Shown here: piece by piece, positions 536 through 10,971 of the stretch
How positions within the stretch are numbered: position 1 is the stretch's first letter
Layout: each line of letters begins with the position of its first letter
Origin: Thermogladius calderae 1633
GTDB taxonomy: Archaea; Thermoproteota; Thermoprotei_A; Sulfolobales; Desulfurococcaceae
Assembly: GCF_000264495.1 (NCBI RefSeq)
Contig: NC_017954.1
Location: 620,001-684,000 of the forward strand
Length of the DNA: 64,000 bases
Direction: 5' to 3'
Notes under the pieces: generated by a model
Databases searched by the model: none
What the model was told of the DNA's origin: nothing
Seen by the model: the letters and a program-made list of their open reading frames with translations, nothing else
Position numbers and translations under genes: made by a program

Positions 536-1648
536 ATGGTTGAACTTGGTAAGTTAAAGGAGGAAATGTACGGTTTGCTCCAAAAGCTGACAAGCGTCCA
601 CGCACCGAGCGGGTTTGAGTACTTGATTCACGACACCGTGATAAGCGAGCTGGAGAGACACGCTGACAAGGTGTGGGTGGACTCCTTGGGCAACGTGATC
701 GCGTTAAAGAAGGGAAGCAAGGGTGGGGCCAGCCTAATGCTCGCGGCCCACATGGACGAGATAGGGCTGTTCGTGTCCTATATAGAGGACGACGGTTTCC
801 TACGCGTCACCCCGATAGGCGGGGTTCTTGAGAGGACACTACTACACCAGCGCGTAGTCATAGTGACTAGAAGCGGGAGGACTGTGAAAGGCGTCATAGG
901 CTTAAAGCCCCCTCATGTAGTCAAGCCGGAGGAGGCCCAGAAGATACCTGAGATAAAAGAACTCTTCGTAGACATCGGGGCGTCATCGCGGGACGATGTG
1001 GAGAAAATGGGTGTAAGGGTTGGCGACGTAGCGGTGTTCGACAGGGCTATGGAGAGGTTGGCCGGGGATAGAGTCACAGGCAAGGCGTTTGACGATAGAG
1101 CAGGCCTCGCTGTGATGCTTAAAGCCTTCCAGCTGATCGAGAACAACGAGGCCGACGTGTACGCTGTGGCTACTGTCCAAGAGGAGGTCGGGCTCAAGGG
1201 TGCGAGGACTGCCGCCTTCGCTATCTCCCCCAGCGTGGCGATCGCCCTTGATGTCACTATTGCGAGCGACTTCCCCGGTGTAGCGAAGAGCGAGCAGTTC
1301 ACGAGGTTGGGTAGGGGCCCCGCGATCAAAATAGCCGACGGGAGGAACGCGTCAGGCCTCATCACACACCCCGAGATACTCAACTTCATGGTCAAGGTTG
1401 CCGAAGAGGAGAAGATACCCTATCAGCTAGAGGTCATACCTGGGGGGACTACTGACGCCTCGATAATAGCGTTGAACAAGGAGGGGGTACCGGCAGGCGT
1501 TGTCTCGGTGCCTGCGAGGTACATACACTCCCCCACGGAAGTAATAGACTTGAACGACCTCGCCTACGCGGTATTACTCACAGAAAAGATAGCCGAGAAA
1601 GCAGGTGTCGAGTGGCTCAACAGAATTAGGATGCGAGTCGTGAAGTAG
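536..1648 (+). CDS. M42 family metallopeptidase (TET-type aminopeptidase)
   Basis: M42 enzymes are cytoplasmic dinuclear-metal aminopeptidases that form large tetrahedral assemblies and trim peptides released by the proteasome. Visible hallmarks are the HAPSG motif near the N-terminus, the metal-binding AAHMDEIG, GKAFDDRAG, the catalytic EE in TVQEEVGLKGA, ALDVTIASDFPG, and the C-terminal PARYIHSPTEV that supplies the last metal ligand. The length (about 370 aa) is normal. The frame is open from a GTG at 527, but the ATG at 536 fits better, because a TATA-like cttatatc near 491-498 would put transcription start close to it. The gene is monocistronic. Confidence 0.93.
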   Translation: MVELGKLKEEMYGLLQKLTSVHAPSGFEYLIHDTVISELERHADKVWVDSLGNVIALKKGSKGGASLMLAAHMDEIGLFVSYIEDDGFLRVTPIGGVLERTLLHQRVVIVTRSGRTVKGVIGLKPPHVVKPEEAQKIPEIKELFVDIGASSRDDVEKMGVRVGDVAVFDRAMERLAGDRVTGKAFDDRAGLAVMLKAFQLIENNEADVYAVATVQEEVGLKGARTAAFAISPSVAIALDVTIASDFPGVAKSEQFTRLGRGPAIKIADGRNASGLITHPEILNFMVKVAEEEKIPYQLEVIPGGTTDASIIALNKEGVPAGVVSVPARYIHSPTEVIDLNDLAYAVLLTEKIAEKAGVEWLNRIRMRVVK

Positions 1649-1651
1649 CTC

Positions 1652-2164
1652 TCACAGACCGAAGAACATCTTTAACACCGTGGCCCCGGTCTCGACGACT
1701 GCTAAGACTATTAGAAAAGCCCCGAGCACGCCTAACTCGATACTGAGAACCCCCTTTCTAAGTTCCATACCCAGCACGTGCGCTACAAGCGCGCCAGTCC
1801 ACGCCCCGGTACCTGGTAGGGGTATCGCAACGAACACTGCTAGGCCGGCGAACTCAAGCCTCTCGTGCCCTCTCGCCTTCTTCCTAGCGTAGTCCACTAC
1901 TTTCCAGTAGAGTCTCTTCAGAAAACCGGGGGCTCTACTGTTGTTTACAATCTTCCTCTCAGCGAACCTCAAGGCGAGAACGGCTATGGGGGCCACCGCT
2001 AGATTACCCAATAAACCTGCGGCCAGTGCCACCATGTAGAGCGACTGGTCCTGTCTGAAGAAGTAGTACGCAAGCGGTATGGCCCCTCGTATCTCAGCCA
2101 CGGGCGAGAACCCCATCAGAAAGACGAGTAGTAGCTCGTACGCTACACTGCCCACGTGGAACAC
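1652..2164 (-). CDS. Small multidrug-export-like membrane protein (COG2426)
   Basis: A 170-aa polytopic membrane protein with about four hydrophobic segments. The motif MGFSPVAEIRGAIPLAYYF near the N-terminus and PLPGTGAWTGAL in the second half are typical of the Sm_multidrug_ex family (COG2426). That name comes from weak similarity to drug exporters; the real substrate is unknown. The gene ends 3 bp from the convergent M42 peptidase gene. It starts with GTG and shares an AT-rich promoter region (2172-2183) with the divergent DUF998 gene. Confidence 0.8.
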   Translation of the reverse strand: MFHVGSVAYELLLVFLMGFSPVAEIRGAIPLAYYFFRQDQSLYMVALAAGLLGNLAVAPIAVLALRFAERKIVNNSRAPGFLKRLYWKVVDYARKKARGHERLEFAGLAVFVAIPLPGTGAWTGALVAHVLGMELRKGVLSIELGVLGAFLIVLAVVETGATVLKMFFGL

Positions 2165-2171
2165 CGCGCAC

Positions 2172-2183
2172 TACCTATTTAAG
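2172..2183. promoter_or_regulatory. Shared TATA element between divergent genes
   Basis: The sequence ctatttaagaga lies between two divergent start codons at 2164 (minus) and 2206 (plus). TATTTAAG read forward and CTTAAATA read in reverse both resemble archaeal TATA boxes. The plus-strand spacing of about 25 nt to the TTG at 2206 fits a leaderless transcript. The minus-strand spacing is shorter and less certain. Confidence 0.45.
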
Positions 2184-2205
2184 AGACCCGCGGTCGAATA
2201 AAAAC

Positions 2206-2763
2206 TTGGTGTCCTCGGTGGAAGCAAGACCCTTAATCCTCGTCTCACCCTTTATCGCGTCTCTCCTCTCTCTACTGCTCCTAGCCCTGTGCACCCCCTG
2301 GTTTAACATCTGGGAGAACGCATTCAGCGATCTTGGGAGAATCGAGAAAGGCCTGACAGCTGTGGTGTTTAACGGGTTGGTATCCACCACGGGGGCTATC
2401 CTGTTGGTATACGCGACCTCGGTAGCACGCCCCCTCGCCGCCCCCTACAGAGCCCTGCTCGTGTTAGGAGGCTACTCTCTGACCATGATAGGTGTTTACC
2501 CGGAGGACTACGGGAGGCTACACTTCTACGTCTCTCTCGCCTTCTTCTTGGCCTCAATAGCCTACATGGTGGTACACGCCATGGAGACCTCTGTCGAGGG
2601 GGCCGTGATTGCCGCCCTAGGGCTCGTCAATTTAGGGGTCTGGACAGCACACTTCACGTTCAACTTTCCTCCTGGCGCCGCCGTCCCCGAGCTAGTCTCG
2701 CTCGTATCGATGCTCGCCACACTGGCTAGAGACCTCGGGAAGACCGATTCAGGTCAGTCGTAA
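2206..2763 (+). CDS. DUF998 family membrane protein
   Basis: A 185-aa integral membrane protein with about six hydrophobic segments. The NAFSDLG motif after the first segment and GVYPEDYGRLHFYVS in the middle match the DUF998 family, which has no established function. The start is a TTG at 2206, with GTG alternatives at 2209 and 2218. The 3' end overlaps by 10 bp the severed 3' end of the radical SAM gene on the other strand, so the convergent pair was tightly packed before the 4.9-kb insertion. Confidence 0.8.
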   Translation: MVSSVEARPLILVSPFIASLLSLLLLALCTPWFNIWENAFSDLGRIEKGLTAVVFNGLVSTTGAILLVYATSVARPLAAPYRALLVLGGYSLTMIGVYPEDYGRLHFYVSLAFFLASIAYMVVHAMETSVEGAVIAALGLVNLGVWTAHFTFNFPPGAAVPELVSLVSMLATLARDLGKTDSGQS

Positions 2764-2864
2764 GCGTTTCCGAGGAGGAACGTGTTCCCCAAATAGACTC
2801 TTCTAAGCCCGTTCTCCTCCGCGATTTTCAACGCCCTCCTAGCGTGAGACCAACTCGTCCTAGG
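2754..2864 (-). pseudogene. Severed 3' end of the radical SAM gene whose 5' part is at 7746-8825
   Basis: Read on the minus strand from the CCTAGG at 2859-2864, this encodes Pro-Arg followed by 34 residues (beginning TSWSHARRALKIAEENG and ending VYLGNTFLLGNAYD) and a TGA stop at 2754-2756. It has no start codon. It looks like the C-terminus of PflA-like radical SAM proteins, where an ARRA.KIA helix leads into a final VYLGN strand. The 5' fragment at 7806-8825 ends with the same Pro-Arg codons (CCT AGG), and fusing the two restores a 374-codon protein. Confidence 0.85.
2859..2864. repeat. Left target-site duplication CCTAGG
   Basis: This 6-bp palindrome is also present at 7806-7811. The two copies flank the inserted segment, and only one is needed to rebuild the radical SAM reading frame. 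Whether a given copy belongs to the element or the host cannot be decided from one sequence. Confidence 0.75.
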
Positions 2865-2907
2865 AACCCAGCCGAAGGAGGGGGGTTCCCATCATGGTGT
2901 ACACCTT

Positions 2908-2931
2908 CCGATAACCCCCTCCTTCAGACCA
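2908..2931 (+). repeat. Left subterminal inverted repeat of the element
   Basis: CCGATAACCCCCTCC followed by TTCAGACCA. The reverse complement of 7762-7787 reads CCGATATGCCCCCCTCC followed by TTCAGACCA, so the two ends share 17 identical bases plus CCGATA, with a 2-nt length difference. The left copy lies about 43 bp inside the CCTAGG junction. Its CCCCCTCCTTC (2915-2925) can also pair with GAAGGAGGGGG just upstream (2874-2884), forming an 11-bp stem with a loop of about 30 nt. Confidence 0.7.
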
Positions 2932-2962
2932 GGGGAGGGATCCAAGATCCGCTCCCTCCCCT
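2931..2962. repeat. Perfect 10-bp hairpin at the left end of the element
   Basis: AGGGGAGGGA (2931-2940) is the exact reverse complement of TCCCTCCCCT (2953-2962), leaving a 12-nt loop. It directly abuts the left inverted repeat. Such stable GC-rich hairpins near element ends are typical of sites recognised as folded single strands, but could equally be a terminator. Confidence 0.6.
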
Positions 2963-3827
2963 AAATTCAAATGTTAGGATCTTAACGAGAGGGAGGACTA
3001 TGGAGGGGATTAGAGATTGAGAGTTGAATAGAGTGGGGAGCTAGGTGTCTAAGCTATGGATTCCACTCTATCCCCACACCCAAGCTAGGAGAGCTATCCA
3101 CAGGCGTAACGTTATCCGAGTGAGGTAAATGCCTAAAATGTTAAAGTGGGAGGGGAGCACACGAATCCACTCTTAGACCCCCCTCTAACTCGTGGAGCTC
3201 TTTATATCTCTCATTGACAGCTCCCTTACCTACACTTTGGAGGTTTCCTGGTTTTCTTTGGTTCCCCTTCTTTCCTCTCCACTTCTTTAACCCCCTGTTT
3301 ACTCAAGGGAGCTCACCACTATAGGTGTTATATTCTCGCATTCCTAATATAAGAAGGGTATACCTAAACGTTAAGTAGGAAACTCGAGTGTGTCCCAGGT
3401 AACCTTATAAAGTCTTTGCTCCAACAGCGTGATCTCATAATTTAGAGTTTACTAGATCATAGTATGTGGGACTTTACCTACACACTATACCCTTACCTAA
3501 AAACTCTCATGGTGCTTACCGGTTCCAAGTGATTTACATGTAGGATATTAGAGATTCTGATTATCGAAGCACATTATAGATGCTCCTAGAGAGTCTTGTT
3601 TGTTGATATTGTCACAGCCGACTTGTCACTAGAGTTCTAGACGGTAACCTCCCTCTCGTTTAAGTAACCTTACTTATTGTATGCTTCAAGTTTAGAGTTA
3701 TGGTGTTGTCCTTTAGGGGGTTGATACCGAAGTTAACATAGAGCTCCTGGAGGCTCGCTATCCATGTAAGAAGTGATTACGAGAATTTAAACTAGGGTTA
3801 AGCTCCTTCATATGAGGTGAATGGAGG
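2963..3827. other. Long non-coding left arm of the element
   Basis: About 865 bp with no convincing gene on either strand. It is AT-rich with many stop codons and short hairpins, for example atagagtgg (3028-3036) pairing with ccactctat (3063-3071). The sequence agttctagacgg near 3632-3643 recurs at about 7139-7150 in the right arm. A TATA-like gaatttaaac near 3782-3791 and the Shine-Dalgarno-like gaggtgaatggagg just before 3828 belong to the glycosylase gene. Confidence 0.5.
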
Positions 3828-4715
3828 TTGCCTAGAATACAGTTAAAGGAACTTTCTGAGAATGAGAGGAGAGAACTCCTTAAAAAGCTTGAGGAAATTG
3901 GTAAGAGTAATCTAAAGCAGGATCTAGAGCAAAGTCTACTATCTAAGCTGTCTCAGAGTGATAGATGGGATAAGGAGCTCTTATTAAGGTATCTCTTGTT
4001 AGCTTCTATTCTCGATCAACAAGCTGAATCGGTAAGTGCGAGGAATACAGTAATTAAACTCTATGAGGAGTTTGGGAGAGACTTTTTCATGAAACCCCAT
4101 GACTCGATAAATAGAATCCACGATATATTAGATAGAGTCCTCAAAGTCTATGAGCCTAAATCTAGGGTTATTAGGGTTTCGAAGGAGGGTGTATCTCTGA
4201 TGAGGGTTGGTGGTTTCCTCCTCGCACTACTCAGTCTATCCTCACAGTACGGCTCCCTACAACGTTACTTTAGTTCCTTTAGAGGACCAAGAGAGCTACT
4301 TAATAAGGGTATACTGGGTAACGTACTCCTTAAAGGACTCTTATACGAGAAGGCCGCTCGAATGTATGTAGGCTGGATTACCCACCCAGACTTACACATT
4401 GATATCTTCGAAGGACGCTGCGGGTATAACGAGATACCTATGCCTGTAAACGGTCACGTGTCCAAGGTTATGGCGAGAACAGGGTTCCTAAACTCTGTCC
4501 TAGTGGAGGAGGGTAGACCAATAGTGAAGGCTAACGAGGAAAGGAAGAGGATAGAGAATCTTGTTAAGAGATACTATCCTCGAGGCGACTTCTTCATGAT
4601 AGACTATGGTGCTTTCTACATAGGTTTCAAGTATTGTAGAGAGGAGAATCCAAATTGTAACGCATGTCCAATATCGAATTTATGTAAGAGGAACACTAAG
4701 GTGCGCGCCTTCTAG
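3828..4715 (+). CDS. HhH-GPD (EndoIII-like) DNA glycosylase with Fe-S cluster and Asp-to-Asn change
   Basis: The 295-aa protein ends with Cys270-x6-Cys277-x2-Cys280-x5-Cys286, the exact [4Fe-4S] spacing of endonuclease III/MutY-type glycosylases. The stretch 203-221 (IPMPVNGHVSKVMARTGFL) aligns with the family signature PVDTHVxRVxxRLG, which places Asn208 where the catalytic Asp normally is, followed by Gly209. Lys175 in LLYEKAARM sits where the Schiff-base Lys of bifunctional members lies; the hairpin glycines before it are poorly conserved. Such glycosylases next to methyltransferases, as in archaeal thymine-mismatch glycosylases, repair deaminated methylcytosine. The start is TTG after a strong gaggtgaatggagg site. 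Substrate and activity are inferred. Confidence 0.75.
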   Translation: MPRIQLKELSENERRELLKKLEEIGKSNLKQDLEQSLLSKLSQSDRWDKELLLRYLLLASILDQQAESVSARNTVIKLYEEFGRDFFMKPHDSINRIHDILDRVLKVYEPKSRVIRVSKEGVSLMRVGGFLLALLSLSSQYGSLQRYFSSFRGPRELLNKGILGNVLLKGLLYEKAARMYVGWITHPDLHIDIFEGRCGYNEIPMPVNGHVSKVMARTGFLNSVLVEEGRPIVKANEERKRIENLVKRYYPRGDFFMIDYGAFYIGFKYCREENPNCNACPISNLCKRNTKVRAF

Positions 4716-4803
4716 CCTTCCACGGTTAACGTTTAGATGGTAATACCAGGGGTTAAAGTTTAAAAGGCTACCCCATAATACATAGTATATAGGGGTATGG
4801 GGT

Positions 4804-5127
4804 ATGGGTATCGAGCTACCTATACCACCTGAACCTGAGGAGATAAAGAGGTTTATAAGGGAGCATAGGATGAGACTTCAATCAGAACCTGATATAGATC
4901 TCGATTCCCTAGCTGTATGGTATTTAAACAGGCTACCCTCATACCTATGGGGGGTTTGGAAGAAGGATCTTGAGGATAGAGGGTATACGTGGCAGAGGTT
5001 TGTGAAGATCCTGAGGTATGCTACGAGTGATGTGATCGAGTGGGCTTTATACGATAACCTTGAGTGGGAAGATCTAGTGTACAGGTTGATTAAGCTCCTT
5101 GAGAGATATGCTCCCATCAAGGGGTGA
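4804..5127 (+). CDS. 107-aa helical protein of the R-M cassette, unknown function
   Basis: A small protein predicted to be mostly helical and rich in Trp, Arg and Glu, with proline-rich beginning IPPEPEEIKRF and a central WGVWKKDLEDRGYTWQRF. No helix-turn-helix, zinc or nuclease motif is recognisable. It lies 6 bp upstream of the methyltransferase start, so the two are almost certainly co-transcribed. A TATA-like gtttaaaagg near 4758-4767 could serve both. By position it could be a controller, a methyltransferase subunit or a nuclease partner. I do not recognise the family. Confidence 0.65.
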   Translation: MGIELPIPPEPEEIKRFIREHRMRLQSEPDIDLDSLAVWYLNRLPSYLWGVWKKDLEDRGYTWQRFVKILRYATSDVIEWALYDNLEWEDLVYRLIKLLERYAPIKG

Positions 5128-5133
5128 TATGCT

Positions 5134-6060
5134 ATGGTCTTCGTTAAGGTGGTATTCGGAGATGCAAGGAACATGGGGGAGCTCCAGGACGGCTCAGTGC
5201 ACCTCGTTGTAACCTCCCCGCCGTACTACAATGCCCCCTTCGACTTCCCGGGCTTGTTCCCGAGCTACGGGGACTACCTGGATCTACTCCGGGGTGTTGG
5301 GAGGGAGATCTACAGGGTTCTAGCTCCTGGTAGGGTTGCCTGCTTCGTCACTCAGGATGTTAGGGTTGAGGGTAGACTCTACCCTATAGTCTCAGACCTC
5401 ATACACATCATGGTGTACGAGGTTGGGTTCGAGTACCAGGAGAAGATAGTGTGGAGGAAGCCTGAGGGTTACATTAGGATTAGTAGGAGAAGTGGTGTCC
5501 TAATACAACACCCATACCCCATGTACTACTACCCTGATAACATATACGAGGAGATAGTCGTCTTCAGGAAGCCGGGTGAATTCGATAGAACCAAGGTACC
5601 CGAGCATGTGAGGGAGAGGAGTAGGATCGATGTTAGGAGATTCCAAGTTGAGAAGTGGTACCTCTCAGTATGGGATATAAAGAACGTTCTACCAAGCGAG
5701 AAGTGGAGCAAGTACACGGCGGCGTTCCCGGAGGAGCTGGTGCAGAGGCTCGTGAGACTCTACAGCTACGTCGGGGAGACGGTTCTAGACCCGTTCCTCG
5801 GGACAGGGACAACATGCGCTGTAGCTAGGAGGCTTGAGAGGAACTGTGTAGGCTACGAGATAGACCTGGAGCTAAGAGAGGTGATAGAGGAGAGGCTGGG
5901 GATAGGGAAACCAAGCCTAACAGAGTACACTCGGGGAGCCGACGTTAAAGAGGTAGTGGTTAGAAACGATGCTAGGAGGTTGAGGACGACATTGAGAGAG
6001 AGAATAGAGAGGAGGTTGAATGAAAAGAACGAGAGATCCATGAGGGATAATCATAGTTAA
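5134..6060 (+). CDS. Beta-class DNA methyltransferase, probably N4-cytosine specific
   Basis: It transfers a methyl group from S-adenosylmethionine to an exocyclic amino group in DNA. Motif IV TSPPYYN is at residues 27-33, and the AdoMet-binding motif I DPFLGTGTT comes later at 219-227, followed by GYEID (240-244). The order IV before I defines the beta class. The Ser-Pro-Pro-Tyr form of motif IV is usual for N4-cytosine enzymes, with N6-adenine the alternative. Much of the gene is GC-richer than the other genes of the element, suggesting a separate origin. It is convergent with, and overlaps by 4 bp, the 340-aa gene, as modification and restriction genes often do. The recognition sequence cannot be read from the protein. 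Confidence 0.9.
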   Translation: MVFVKVVFGDARNMGELQDGSVHLVVTSPPYYNAPFDFPGLFPSYGDYLDLLRGVGREIYRVLAPGRVACFVTQDVRVEGRLYPIVSDLIHIMVYEVGFEYQEKIVWRKPEGYIRISRRSGVLIQHPYPMYYYPDNIYEEIVVFRKPGEFDRTKVPEHVRERSRIDVRRFQVEKWYLSVWDIKNVLPSEKWSKYTAAFPEELVQRLVRLYSYVGETVLDPFLGTGTTCAVARRLERNCVGYEIDLELREVIEERLGIGKPSLTEYTRGADVKEVVVRNDARRLRTTLRERIERRLNEKNERSMRDNHS

Positions 6061-7079
6061 CCCCCCACATCGCTAGGTAGTTTCTGTAAGTATGTCTTTG
6101 TAGCCTCAAGAGCGTAGTAGAGGAGCTCTCCGTTAACAACCATGTATTGATTACGATATTCATGATTACACTCAACTAGCTTACCTCTAGCTTTACCTTC
6201 TATCCTGGGTTTAAGGATCCCCCTGATGGATTTCGGTGTATTAGATGCGAGCTTAAACATTACCTGTGGTCTCTTCCCAGCTATCTTAGCGACACCTACC
6301 TTAACACCCGTTCTAACATTTGGATCAAATTCAATCCTAAGTCTTAACCTATCGACTATGGACTCGTTTAACCCGTTCTCACGTGCTTTGATACGTAGAT
6401 AGTCTAGAACCCTGTGGAAGCAACCCATACAGAAGCTGAAGTATCTCACTGGAATACCTACATCCCTCATATCCCCTATGTAAGCATAATAGGTTACCTC
6501 CTTACCCCCCTGCTGGATCTCACGTTCAACTTTAAGACTTCTAGAGGCTAAGATACCTGGTTTAACTACGTCCTTAAGTAGGTTTAGGAGCTTCTCTATT
6601 AAGTCGGCGTTTACATAGAACATAACCCAGTTGGTCCACTTTTCCGGGTTAACCCCTCTGATAGATGTCCTCTCGAGGTGATAACCTTTAACGTCGAGTT
6701 TTAGATGTATGTTACCGTTCTCGTCATAACCTACATCAACGTACACCTCGTCTGGTGGCATGTAGAACGCTGTCTTACCTCTAAAGGTGGTCTTCTCCCA
6801 TCCTAGAGACTTAGGATCTAGTTTAAGCCACTCTGGGGGTATTAATCTCTCTATCGTTATAGGGTTGGGTTTTCCAAGCCAGCCTCTGAAGTTAGAGTAG
6901 ATTATCGGTATAGGTGTCTTAACCCTCCCATCTCTACTACTGGGAACCTGAAATCCATTGTTAATAAGCTCCTCCTGAAGTTCTAGGGAAGCACTAAAGT
7001 ATATCTGTAGCGAATCAACCTCATACCTCTTAACCCATCTAACCTCCCCATCCAAACTCAGAACACACTCCCCACCCAA
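6057..7079 (-). CDS. Unknown 340-aa protein, candidate restriction endonuclease
   Basis: It is convergent with the methyltransferase and overlaps its stop by 4 bp, the place a cognate restriction enzyme would take. I recognise no family. Residues 110-131 contain several acidic residues followed by a hydrophobic strand ending LKLDVKG, compatible with a PD-(D/E)xK-type Asp-x-Lys (D129, K131), but this is weak. Four cysteines are scattered, without a zinc motif. Translation probably starts at the TTG at 7079, just after a good ggtgat site. A nuclease role is inferred from context only. Confidence 0.6.
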   Translation of the reverse strand: MGGECVLSLDGEVRWVKRYEVDSLQIYFSASLELQEELINNGFQVPSSRDGRVKTPIPIIYSNFRGWLGKPNPITIERLIPPEWLKLDPKSLGWEKTTFRGKTAFYMPPDEVYVDVGYDENGNIHLKLDVKGYHLERTSIRGVNPEKWTNWVMFYVNADLIEKLLNLLKDVVKPGILASRSLKVEREIQQGGKEVTYYAYIGDMRDVGIPVRYFSFCMGCFHRVLDYLRIKARENGLNESIVDRLRLRIEFDPNVRTGVKVGVAKIAGKRPQVMFKLASNTPKSIRGILKPRIEGKARGKLVECNHEYRNQYMVVNGELLYYALEATKTYLQKLPSDVGG

Positions 7080-7403
7080 ATCACCTTAAACTATTTTATC
7101 TTCTTCCTCGAATACACTCTACCCTTCACCCTTACCTAGTTCTAGACGGAGGTCGTTAGTAGCTCATAGCATAAAATACCACTAAATACACGGTAACCTC
7201 TAGGTTAGCTATTGAATCGGAGGGTTTAAAGCCGTAATTGCTATGTTACACAATGTTACCAAGGCTATACATCCTACACCTACACCCCACCTCCCCCTCC
7301 TCTCCGCACCTCTACATGAGGATTTATCCCTCTGTTAGCATACTACAATAACTTTTAATCCTACTGTTACCATGTTAGTAGAGTTTCATACCTATTCGTT
7401 CCT
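7080..7403. other. Non-coding right arm of the element, inner part
   Basis: AT-rich and without a plausible gene. It must contain the promoter of the minus-strand 340-aa gene, and the ggtgat site next to 7079 is visible. The short sequence agttctagacgg shared with the left arm lies at about 7139-7150. Nothing else is recognisable. Confidence 0.4.
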
Positions 7404-7640
7404 TGTTGAACGAGAGACATCAAGGAGGACTAGTAGCACATCGGTAGTACCCATGTGGTGGGACTCCATCGTAGGTGTACCTGGTGATGGTAACGATGGT
7501 CTGAAAAACCAGTAGCAAATCACTACGATGTACCATTAGGAGGGACTTGTAGAGAATGGGATGCTTGTGGAAGCCATCAGAGAAGTGAAGCTAGCATGGT
7601 AACGACGGTGTGGAATGTCCGTAGCAAATCATTGTCATAA
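7404..7640 (+). repeat. Three degenerate copies of an approximately 45-nt RNA-like unit
   Basis: Copies lie at about 7404-7450, 7486-7534 and 7594-7640. The shared core is (A/G)TGGTAACGA, a short variable hairpin, then (C)AGTAGCAAATCA; the first copy is the most diverged. In the middle copy CATCGTAG (7467-7474) pairs exactly with CTACGATG (7523-7530), and TGGT-CTGAAAA-ACCA (7497-7511) makes a 4-bp stem with a 7-nt loop. This looks like structured RNA, but the strand is assumed and the class is not recognised. Confidence 0.45.
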
Positions 7641-7642
7641 AA

Positions 7643-7702
7643 CGGGAAAAATCAAGTCCATGGAGGGGGATAAATCCCATGATCATGAGCGGGAAAAATC
7701 AA
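7643..7702. repeat. 13-bp direct repeat CGGGAAAAATCAA
   Basis: Exact copies are at 7643-7655 and 7690-7702, 47 bp apart, just inside the right end of the element. They could be binding sites for a mobility or control protein, or remnants of an older duplication. Confidence 0.55.
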
Positions 7703-7751
7703 CTCTCATCCGGCGGTGTACAGGATTCATGGTGATATCCCCCTCTCACGA

Positions 7752-7779
7752 CCCCCCTCCATGGTCTGAAGGAGGGGGG
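7752..7779. repeat. Perfect 9-bp hairpin at the right end of the element
   Basis: CCCCCCTCC (7752-7760) pairs with GGAGGGGGG (7771-7779) around a 10-nt loop. It overlaps the right subterminal inverted repeat and mirrors the GC-rich hairpins of the left end. Confidence 0.6.
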
Positions 7780-7787
7780 CATATCGG
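7762..7787 (-). repeat. Right subterminal inverted repeat of the element
   Basis: This is the inverted partner of 2908-2931. TGGTCTGAAGGAGGGGG is identical to the reverse complement of 2915-2931 and is followed by a matching ATCGG. It ends 18 bp inside the right CCTAGG. The foreign tail added to the truncated radical SAM protein is read from this repeat. Confidence 0.7.
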
Positions 7788-7805
7788 CTGAAGAGGGGGG
7801 AGCTC

Positions 7806-7811
7806 CCTAGG
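7806..7811. repeat. Right target-site duplication CCTAGG
   Basis: The second copy of the 6-bp palindrome found at 2859-2864. On the minus strand it encodes Pro339-Arg340 (CCT AGG), the last residues shared by the two halves of the interrupted gene. Confidence 0.75.
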
Positions 7812-8895
7812 GAGGTCGTTGAGGTAGAAGTCCGGGTGGAAGCCCAGAAAGACGACCGGTATGTCGGGGTTCAGGCCCGCGACAAACTTCGTGATACCGT
7901 CCAGCTCGTAGTCGTCTAGGTAGCCTGGTACGAGTAGTACCGATACGACTAGTAGCGGGGGCTCCCTCCTCCTTTCAAAGAGCTTCGCCGCTCTCTTCAC
8001 GTTCTCCCTGATCAGGTGAACGTGTTCGGGTCTCACCCCCGTCAACGCGCTGTAGACCTCTGGGCTCCATGCCTTCATGTCGACCTTAACTATGCCCCCT
8101 GTCTCGAGTGAGAGCTCGACCGCCTTCTCGAAGATCGCCGGGTTCCAGAGCCCGTTGGTCTCCCAACAGACCCTGAAAACCTTGAGTCCGACTTCTTTTG
8201 CCTTTTTAATCATCCTCCTTGCCGCGACGATGGCCGCGGTGGAGAACACAGACGGGTCTCCACCGAAGAAGCAGACGCAGGTGGTCCGCTCGTTTACAGC
8301 CTTCACAAGGTCATCGATAGTGAAGCGAGGTCTCTTCTTAACCGCTATGAAGTGGTGTTCCCAGTTCTGACAGAAGAGGCAATTCAGATTACAAGAGCCG
8401 AAGAATACAGCGATGTTGTAAAAGCCCGGCTCCCCGGTGGGGGTGAGAGCGTAGACCGGGTAGCCAACTCCTCTAGCTGCCGGGCATACCTCGACCGCTA
8501 CGCAGTTCGTCGGGTGGGGGTCGTAGTACACGTGGCCCAGCATAGTATCTGCTCTGAGAAAGCCGACGACCTTCCCAGCGGTCGAGTACCTGAGTCCACA
8601 ATAGCCGACCTCCCCATTACTGAGAGAGCAAGACCTACCGCACAGGGTACACTTCAAACCGTTGCCAGTAGGCTCCTGCTGTTTGCCCAGCTCTCTTCGG
8701 ACCTCTTCGTGGAGCTTCAATACGTGGTCGAGTGCGCTCTTGTTCCTCCTTAGACAGTCTACGCAAACTCCTAGAAAGGACGAGATCGTCCTCGAGGACC
8801 GTCCGCAAAAAGAGCACGTGCCCATATCTACAGCACTACTCCTGGCCTCCCCACTTTGATCTCGTGGTAAGAGGGGTTATAGGGATTAAACCCTG

Positions 8896-10041
8896 TCAAT
8901 CCCCACTTAACCTGAGCTTAGGGCACATCCTGAACTCGTGTAAGACAACCTCGGATACAAACGTAGGGTCGCAATTCACGCACTTCCCCCTAGCAATTAT
9001 TGTGGCCTCCCCCACCATCACCGAGGACGCTTTGAACCCTAGCCTCCCCAAGAGCGAGGCCACTTCGTCGACGCGGGGCTTTCTCATCCCGCTAACCTCG
9101 ACCCCGTACAGACTCATCCTCCAGCACTTCATTCCGTGGGTGTACAGGTTCGCCATGCAGGCTGAAGGGAAGAACAACAAGCCTTTCTTCAAAGCGTACT
9201 TTTGGATCCCGGACTTAATGTCGCCGGTATAGACATCGTACTGCACCCCGTTTCTCATCTTCTCGACTGGGACGTCTACCCTTTTCAAGACCTCCCTTAT
9301 ATCGACGCCCGACTCCTTCAAATTCTTTATGATGCTCTTCGTGACTCTCAAACCGCCCGCCACGACACCTACTGCCCCGTACTCGAGGGCTTGGTCAACG
9401 ATCTCCTTGTACTCACGCTCGGTCACGCCGGGTATTATAGGTCTGAGGAAGAGGAAGGGCTTTAGCCCTGCTTCCCTCAGGTTCTTTATAGTCTCGAGCC
9501 TGAGCTCGGGCTTCGGTGCCTGGGGTTCGAGTTCGCTCCACTTGTTCAAAGTGACGATCGTGACGAGCGGGGATATCAGCCCTCTGCTCGCATCGGCTAT
9601 TCTCGCGGCGTCTCCTCTATTGATGTATGCCTTGGTCGAGAACTGGACAGGGTTGCCCAAGTACGTGTAGAACGCCTGGACGTACTCGATCGTCCGCTCC
9701 TTTACTAGGGGGTGGAAAGGCTCCGACACGCTACCTACTGCGAGGTATGTCCCTTGCAGAGACGGTATGAAGTACTTGTTTGAGAGGAGGGCGTAGACTA
9801 CTTGGATACCGCTCAGCGGGTACGGGCTCGCCTTTGCTGGATACCCCATATCGTATATGTAGCAGTACCTACACTGGAAGAAGCAGCCAATCGAGGTGTG
9901 GATGGTCAGACCGCAAGGCCTAGGCCTCCTTTTAGCGTGGGAATCGTTCTCGGCTTGTCGGGCTTCCCTCTCGCTTAGTAGGCCTCGGACCTCCTCTCTG
10001 AGTTTCTCTTTTAGCTCCAGTAGCTTAACTACGTTGAACAA
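8896..10041 (-). CDS. SPL-type radical SAM protein (COG1533)
   Basis: A 381-aa protein with the cluster motif CFFQCRYCYIYD (C-x3-C-x2-C), followed by SVSEPFHPLVKE and TKAYINRGD, typical of the spore-photoproduct-lyase-like family COG1533. Archaeal members have no defined substrate. Further cysteines near the C-terminus (ARGKCVNCDPTF and FRMCPKL) could bind a second cluster or metal. It lies 70 bp upstream of the interrupted radical SAM gene on the same strand, so the two could share a transcript. The N-terminal 40 residues are a charged helix. Confidence 0.85.
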   Translation of the reverse strand: MFNVVKLLELKEKLREEVRGLLSEREARQAENDSHAKRRPRPCGLTIHTSIGCFFQCRYCYIYDMGYPAKASPYPLSGIQVVYALLSNKYFIPSLQGTYLAVGSVSEPFHPLVKERTIEYVQAFYTYLGNPVQFSTKAYINRGDAARIADASRGLISPLVTIVTLNKWSELEPQAPKPELRLETIKNLREAGLKPFLFLRPIIPGVTEREYKEIVDQALEYGAVGVVAGGLRVTKSIIKNLKESGVDIREVLKRVDVPVEKMRNGVQYDVYTGDIKSGIQKYALKKGLLFFPSACMANLYTHGMKCWRMSLYGVEVSGMRKPRVDEVASLLGRLGFKASSVMVGEATIIARGKCVNCDPTFVSEVVLHEFRMCPKLRLSGD

Positions 10042-10122
10042 ATAAGACCACTCAAAAGATGTTTAACGTGCTACGACCCTTTTACGCCTCCTCTAGAGTG
10101 AGAAGACAGAGGGCTAGCCAAG

Positions 10123-10971
10123 TTATATTCTCTTGAGTTCCTCTAGGTCTTCGCTTCCCATCCTCCAGCCCATGGATCCCATTATCTCCTTCACGTGTTC
10201 TATTTTTTCAGCCTTAGGGATGGGGATGACGTTGTCCTGGCTTATCAGGTAGTTCAAGGCGACCTGCACTGGTGTCCTCCCGTACTTGGAGGCGATCTTC
10301 TGAATCACCGGGTGAGTTGCTACGGCGCCTCTCTCAAGCGGCATGTACGCCTGGATCGCGATGTTGTTTGCACGGCAGAAAGGGAGGAGAGCCTCTTCAA
10401 CTTCTCCTTTATGTAGGACGCTGTAGTGGACTTGATTTACAACTATCCTCTCCCTCGAGAGGGCGTTTATTGCCCTCTTTAGTTCGGTGAGGTCGAAGTT
10501 GCTAACTCCTATGTACCTTGTCAGCCCCTCTTTTGCCACGATCTCGAAGTTCCTGACCTGCTCCTCTATACTTATAGACGTGTTAGGCCAGTGGATCAGG
10601 TACAAGTCCACGTAGTTTACCCCCAACCTCCTCAAGGCGGCTCTGGCGGCCTTGATAATGAGGTCTTTGTCGACGAGTCTGTCGGGCAACATCTTCGTCG
10701 TGATGAAAACGTTATCCCTACCGACGGCTTTGACTAGCTTGCCAACGAATTCTTCGGCCTTCCCGCCGTCGTACATCTCGGCTGTGTCGACGTTGTTGAC
10801 TCCGCTACTCAGAGCGTACAGGTAGGCCTCGTACGCCTTACCGTAGTCTCTGATAGCCCAGGTTCCTAGACCAACGGCGGAAACCTTGTCGCTGCCGATA
10901 ACCTTGAACTCGACTTGCGTAACTCCTCCCCTCCTAGTAGAGCCGCCGGCGGGACTTGAACCCGCGACCAC
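10123..10971 (-). CDS. Aldo/keto reductase (start codon unclear)
   Basis: An NADP-dependent oxidoreductase of the AKR superfamily. Numbered from the GTG at 10971, the tetrad is Asp62 and Tyr67 (NVDTAEMYDGG), Lys93 (ITTKML) and His127 (LYLIHWPN). GVSNFDLTEL and the C-terminal IPIPKAEKIEHV also fit. Family similarity begins about residue 20. The only canonical in-frame start upstream is a GTG inside the tRNA-Thr gene, so the true start is uncertain. A purine-rich ggaggggaggag (about 10924-10935) would be a ribosome-binding site, but the codons after it are GTT, ACG, CAA and GTC. Confidence 0.85.
   Translation of the reverse strand: MVAGSSPAGGSTRRGGVTQVEFKVIGSDKVSAVGLGTWAIRDYGKAYEAYLYALSSGVNNVDTAEMYDGGKAEEFVGKLVKAVGRDNVFITTKMLPDRLVDKDLIIKAARAALRRLGVNYVDLYLIHWPNTSISIEEQVRNFEIVAKEGLTRYIGVSNFDLTELKRAINALSRERIVVNQVHYSVLHKGEVEEALLPFCRANNIAIQAYMPLERGAVATHPVIQKIASKYGRTPVQVALNYLISQDNVIPIPKAEKIEHVKEIMGSMGWRMGSEDLEELKRI

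Follow-up and report, generated by a model that had tools for sequence, protein, structure and literature searches.

A predicted Type II restriction-modification island inserted precisely into a radical SAM gene of the hyperthermophilic archaeon Thermogladius calderae

How did two parts of one radical SAM gene in Thermogladius calderae 1633 come to lie 4.9 kb apart, and by what route did the DNA between them arrive? The locus lies in a window of 64,000 nucleotides (G000:C1:620001-684000; all positions below are those of the window) from a host genome that consists of a single contig of 1,356,318 bp, and it was compared with the genomes of three other members of the genus.

The 5′ part of the radical SAM gene (7806-8825, minus strand) comprises 340 codons up to a Pro-Arg pair encoded by CCT AGG and matches Radical_SAM (PF04055, E = 2e-14); the ORF as it stands runs for 19 further codons into the intervening DNA and stops at 7746. 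The 3′ remnant (2754-2864, minus strand) begins with Pro-Arg, followed by 34 C-terminal codons (TSWSHARRAL...NAYD) and a stop, which occupy 2754-2858. CCTAGG is present at each junction, the left copy at 2859-2864 and the right copy at 7806-7811. The sister locus (L010), found in the genome of another species of the genus (G002), carries an uninterrupted gene of 374 aa, to which the 5′ part is 94% identical at the protein level. Alignment of the flanks to L010 (window 7806-10318 to 2520-5, and window 1359-2864 to 4020-2515) is contiguous save for an overlap of 6 bp, which falls on the two CCTAGG copies, and base-by-base comparison with the sister gives a direct repeat of exactly 6 bp. Both parts are still in frame, and when joined via one CCTAGG they yield 374 aa and a stop, equal to the sister length. 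The block is thereby shown to have been inserted precisely, its borders marked by a direct repeat of 6 bp. An earlier note on this DNA had taken the two parts for halves of one radical SAM gene, bordered on both sides by CCTAGG and restored to a 374-codon frame through a single copy; the intact gene and collinear flanks of G002 bear this out.

CCTAGG is this genome's form of a variable Pro codon. Since the sister has CCAAGG here, with a synonymous Pro codon, the target sequence before insertion is one that we infer. Fifteen more distant relatives read through the insertion point (Leu-[Pro/Ser]-X-Thr) into a similar C-terminal tail, and Pro-Arg is kept at this point in six of the 15; all have the tail, so the idea that relatives might end at residue 340 or lack a TSWSHARRAL-type terminus, which would have made two genes of the two parts, does not hold. 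That nothing was inserted at all, the split being an assembly artefact or an ancient two-gene arrangement, is highly improbable: we found no support for it, and it is opposed by the uninterrupted sister gene, by the preserved frame of both parts and by the island genes, which are coherent and open. Two further genomes of the genus, one of them 99% complete, gave weak matches only and lack the radical SAM ortholog, and for this reason the gene looks dispensable.

The inserted island proper spans 2865-7805 (4,941 bp) and is present in single copy; the size of 4.9 kb given in the earlier note stands, with the limits redrawn. Parts of the island have a GC content of 0.43-0.52, compared with about 0.55 in the flanks, and it is among the lowest-GC stretches of the whole genome, a foreign composition that supports its reading as an island. 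In the non-coding left part (2865-3827) neither an ORF nor a domain relic was detected. The non-coding right part (7080-7805) contains CGGGAAAAATCAA repeats and a pair of 36-nt repeats (7487-7522 and 7596-7631, 81% identical). An Rfam scan of 2500-8900 gave no match, and Pfam found no domain in the scanned six of the 12 stop-read-through frames of these two parts.

The genes between them had been described as a glycosylase, a DNA methyltransferase and two unknown genes. The gene set stands, but one of the "unknown" genes (6057-7079, minus strand, 340 aa) is identified by profile as a Type II restriction enzyme (PADLOC PDLC03542 REase_II, 1.2e-104), with no match in Pfam or NCBIfam. It is convergent with the gene for a predicted beta-class N4/N6 DNA methyltransferase (5134-6060, plus strand, 308 aa; PF01555, 1.3e-48; PADLOC MTase_II, 6e-86), which carries the motifs SPPY and DPFLGTGTT. 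By these profiles the two proteins would complete a Type II restriction-modification (R-M) pair, and the PF01555, MTase_II and REase_II matches likewise support the earlier description of the set as complete. No Pfam model covers the family of the restriction enzyme, and a close solved structure was not found: the enzyme's predicted structure has a pLDDT of 63.5, with no Foldseek match at E ≤ 0.001 and a best VIA Z of 3.8, and no known restriction-enzyme fold (PD-(D/E)XK, HNH, half-pipe or others) was assigned to it with confidence. Neither a match in the three other genomes of the genus nor relatives in viral contigs, phages or plasmids were found, and site avoidance within the window, taken as a clue to specificity, gave no strong signal. 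Directly upstream of the methyltransferase lies a gene for a 107-aa protein with no assigned function (4804-5127, plus strand); it accompanies the methyltransferase in the same position in genome G006 and in Vulcanisaeta, where its homologues are 67% and 45% identical, respectively.

The glycosylase gene (3828-4715, plus strand) encodes a 295-aa HhH-GPD/MutY-EndoIII-like DNA glycosylase homologue with a C-X6-C-X2-C-X5-C cluster, which is matched weakly by PF00730 and best among NCBIfam models by mutY (TIGR01084, 1.8e-5, residues 201-289). In MutY the Asp at the (V/L)DG(H/N)V position is catalytic, and active glycosylases of the MutY/EndoIII type carry it; in the window protein residue 208 (4449-4451) is Asn, the motif reading PVNGHV versus IVDGHV in the homologue from genome G353. 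Because Asn takes the place of this Asp, the window protein has probably lost its catalytic residue and may be inactive, which the earlier gene list overlooked. The G353 protein is the sole clear relative among 300 genomes (34% identity), and none was found in plasmids. It retains the Asp, and its gene lies directly behind that of a methyltransferase 68% identical to the island enzyme in an apparent operon (L097, G353:C140), which is, on gene order, an independent link between the island types of glycosylase and methyltransferase. A homologue of the restriction enzyme did not turn up in the 93%-complete G353, whose contig ends near this operon. The most natural role for a glycosylase companion would be the repair of deaminated methylated bases at high temperature.

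The ends of the island carry two features that the earlier note did not mention. The first is a subterminal inverted repeat reading CCGATA..CCCCCTCCTTCAGACCAxGGxxGGG, with its left arm at 2908-2939 (plus strand; CCGATA..CCCCCTCCTTCAGACCAGGGGAGGG), beginning 43 nt inside the junction repeat, and its right arm at 7754-7787 (minus strand), beginning 18 nt inside. The best 25-nt match between the two ends is 22/25, a value attained by none of 300 random segments of equal length. Across 398 genomes of the phylum, exact occurrences of the motif CCCCCTCCTTCAGACCANGG are confined to the two island ends; matches with two mismatches in other genomes are single, except for one genome with two that lie 72 kb apart, and appear chance-like. 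The second feature is a set of hairpins: a GC-rich hairpin with a perfect 11-bp stem (2874-2925) and another with a 10-bp stem (2931-2962) at the left end, and one with a 9-bp stem, CCCCCCTCC/GGAGGGGGG, at the right end (7752-7779). GC-rich hairpins with a stem of at least 9 number 48 in the 1.36-Mb genome, and three of these 48 lie within about 150 nt at the island ends. The unique shared inverted repeat and the clustering of rare hairpins make the island ends special, yet they are not terminal as in a classical transposon.

Domain searches of the island ORFs matched no transposase or integrase, and no relic of either was present in the six read-through frames scanned, in agreement with the earlier statement that the block holds no transposase. 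When the island is compared with non-autonomous transposons of the DDE type, the short target-site duplication is there (6 bp, against the empty site of the sister), whereas terminal inverted repeats are not, the arms lying 43 and 18 nt inside. Nothing sharing these ends, whether a further copy or an autonomous relative, was found in the host genome, in 398 genomes searched with the motif or in 214 genomes searched with the end sequences, which returned weak short matches only; as a consequence no recombinase can be named. Three candidates were rejected: an IS200/IS605 or IS607 element, given the 6-bp repeat and the lack of TnpA/TnpB genes in the island; an integrase-borne integrated element, given the lack of an integrase domain and of a tRNA at the site; and an IS607-like element of the host as the mover, given that it and the island have unrelated ends. 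The host genome contains two TnpB-like ORFs of 453 aa (G000:C1:108030-109521 and 1354403-1355894), one of which adjoins an IS607-type serine recombinase; with about 91% DNA identity the pair is the longest highly similar repeat detected in this genome.

We consider it probable, with moderate confidence, that the island is a mobile Type II R-M unit that inserted into a dispensable Thermogladius radical SAM gene and was moved by a recombinase acting in trans. This reading is favored by the exact empty site, the conserved tail, the single copy, the low GC content, the conservation of the enzyme pair, the special ends and a parallel in Alkanophaga that is described below; against it stand the non-terminal position of the inverted repeat, the lack of a relative with the same ends and the sister site CCAAGG, and the activity of the enzymes is a prediction from sequence. 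The unit would be non-autonomous, with the recombinase provided in trans from a lost helper or a donor replicon and recognizing the hairpin or inverted-repeat ends, and the target would be cut with a 6-bp stagger so that CCTAGG is left on each side. Inside the host the R-M pair would restrict foreign DNA, while its own loss might be lethal through post-segregational killing, and the island would thus persist despite the broken gene; such killing has been published for Type II systems (PMC3031569, PMC10273834). The glycosylase homologue probably once accompanied the pair and cleared methylated sites of bases damaged (deaminated) by heat, though it may now be inactive.

The special ends speak for transposition in trans and the palindromic repeat speaks for joining at CCTAGG; both routes fit. 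Joining, which we regard as possible though unlikely, would involve a circular or linear R-M molecule linked to the chromosome at CCTAGG with no transposase and with the ends as incidental features, either through ligation of CTAG overhangs that a restriction enzyme, perhaps one encoded by the molecule itself, had produced or through illegitimate crossing-over where the two shared 6 bp. The hexamer at the junctions is perfectly palindromic, as expected of a restriction site and as would hold for about 1 in 64 random 6-bp targets, and neither a transposase among the island ORFs nor a relic in the six read-through frames scanned was found. Crossing-over of an R-M plasmid with a chromosome has moreover been observed where the two shared 1-3 bp (PMC3031569). 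Such joining leaves unexplained both the hairpins and the inverted repeat shared by the two ends, and CCTAGG is only mildly under-represented in the genome (377 versus 508 expected). A specificity for CTAG might be suggested by the island methyltransferase, which is 33% identical to that of plasmid pFZ1, whose neighbor is a MjaI-family endonuclease; MjaI and MthZI cut CTAG. Profile comparison of the island restriction enzyme with the MjaI-family endonuclease of pFZ1 gave no similarity, however, and a CTAG specificity is therefore unsupported. It is a long shot that movement of this kind is general, with an R-M unit entering genes without any transposase by means of its hairpin-bearing ends and the CCTAGG palindrome at the junction, which its own restriction enzyme might cut, and with related enzymes doing likewise behind other ends in other archaea.

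Convergent homologues of the methyltransferase and the restriction enzyme were found in Desulfurococcaceae archaeon AG1, G006, Vulcanisaeta sp. JCM 14467 and Ca. Alkanophaga volatiphilum. In the last of these (L056:9243-12577) the homologous pair (55% and 66% identity) lies inside the gene for another beta-class methyltransferase, whose left and right ORFs match PF01555 positions 1-171 and 178-220, respectively. Inverted repeats of 27 nt, GGTTCTGTTGAA.....GGGTGTTGCAA, lie at the junctions and do not recur in that genome, and no transposase is present. The Alkanophaga unit thus resembles that of the window in its enzymes, its position in a protein gene, its inverted repeats and its lack of a transposase, but it has unrelated terminal repeats and is without the glycosylase or the 107-aa gene. 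Because no target duplication is evident at this insert and no intact relatives of the split methyltransferase were found, the case is supportive but less well proven. For the AG1 homologue an empty site was not recoverable, relatives being without the neighboring lipB gene, and about 6 kb from the G006 copy is an IS607-family transposase-like ORF (L052:2627-3211).

The Vulcanisaeta copy lies behind a tRNA-Arg(CCG) and an interrupted, frameshifted ORF resembling the start of an integrase (L057:9050-9990), surroundings that suggest a decayed integrated element; Pfam gave no integrase match to this ORF, and crenarchaeal integrase is our reading of it. This neighborhood lends something to another explanation for the window, in which the island is the remnant of an integrated plasmid or satellite placed by site-specific recombination with a 6-bp overlap, the tyrosine recombinase acting in trans. 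Some tyrosine recombinases typically use a crossover region of 6 bp, the length of the repeat. Given that there is no integrase in or beside the island, that the island did not enter a tRNA gene and that there is no longer att identity, we hold this explanation to be quite improbable. Together with the separate glycosylase-methyltransferase operon of G353, the Alkanophaga homologue suggests that mobile R-M units of archaea form a small family, one worth surveying. For the mobile unit proposed here, the locus is an unusually clean case: the empty site in the sister is exact, the ends are defined, and the R-M pair, apparently intact, lies in a protein gene of a hyperthermophilic archaeon. It offers tangible material for studying how R-M systems move when they have no transposase, which is poorly explained so far.

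The earlier view that precise movement of an R-M set into a coding gene looks new was overstated. The mobility of R-M systems is the subject of several reports (PMC3031569, PMC10273834, PMC4615327), which describe the insertion of such pairs, with no transposase and at times with short junction repeats, in bacteria and archaea, and mobile units have been published that include one inserted in a member of the Desulfurococcaceae (PMC4615327, PMC10273834). The relevant parts of the latter two accounts concern PabI-family R-M systems of Staphylothermus hellenicus (the Desulfurococcaceae member), Campylobacter and Helicobacter, with insertions between sister genomes in which 62 bp were replaced in S. 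hellenicus and AGCT was replaced in Campylobacter, with TAAA at the boundary. Like the window island, these are methyltransferase-restriction enzyme pairs, arranged tail to tail in archaea and inserted without a transposase, in one case in the same archaeal family and in some cases with short junction repeats. They differ in having another restriction enzyme and methyltransferase and, in S. hellenicus, a 62-bp replacement rather than a 6-bp repeat, and hairpin ends are not described in these parts of the accounts. The pFZ1 system of Methanothermobacter (NC_001337) shares with the window a beta-class methyltransferase convergent with an endonuclease gene, but is plasmid-borne and has an endonuclease unrelated by profile comparison. 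Mismatch glycosylases of the Mig.MthI type, from the MutY/EndoIII superfamily, are also linked to R-M systems; they share with the window protein the superfamily and the linkage to a methyltransferase in a thermophile, at very low similarity and with Asn at the catalytic Asp position in the window protein. The PluTI element (Khan et al. 2010) and the units of Furuta et al. 2010 reportedly consist of R-M systems flanked by inverted repeats and a target duplication, and would thus resemble the window in that R-M genes are the cargo of transposon-like units that lack a transposase. Their repeats are said to be terminal, whereas those of the window are subterminal, hairpin-forming and unequally spaced, and the window unit, unlike theirs, has coding sequence of a hyperthermophile's gene as its target. 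The island is thus a very clean instance of an already described form of R-M mobility, unusual in its coding-sequence target, its palindromic junction repeat, its subterminal hairpin ends and its glycosylase companion.
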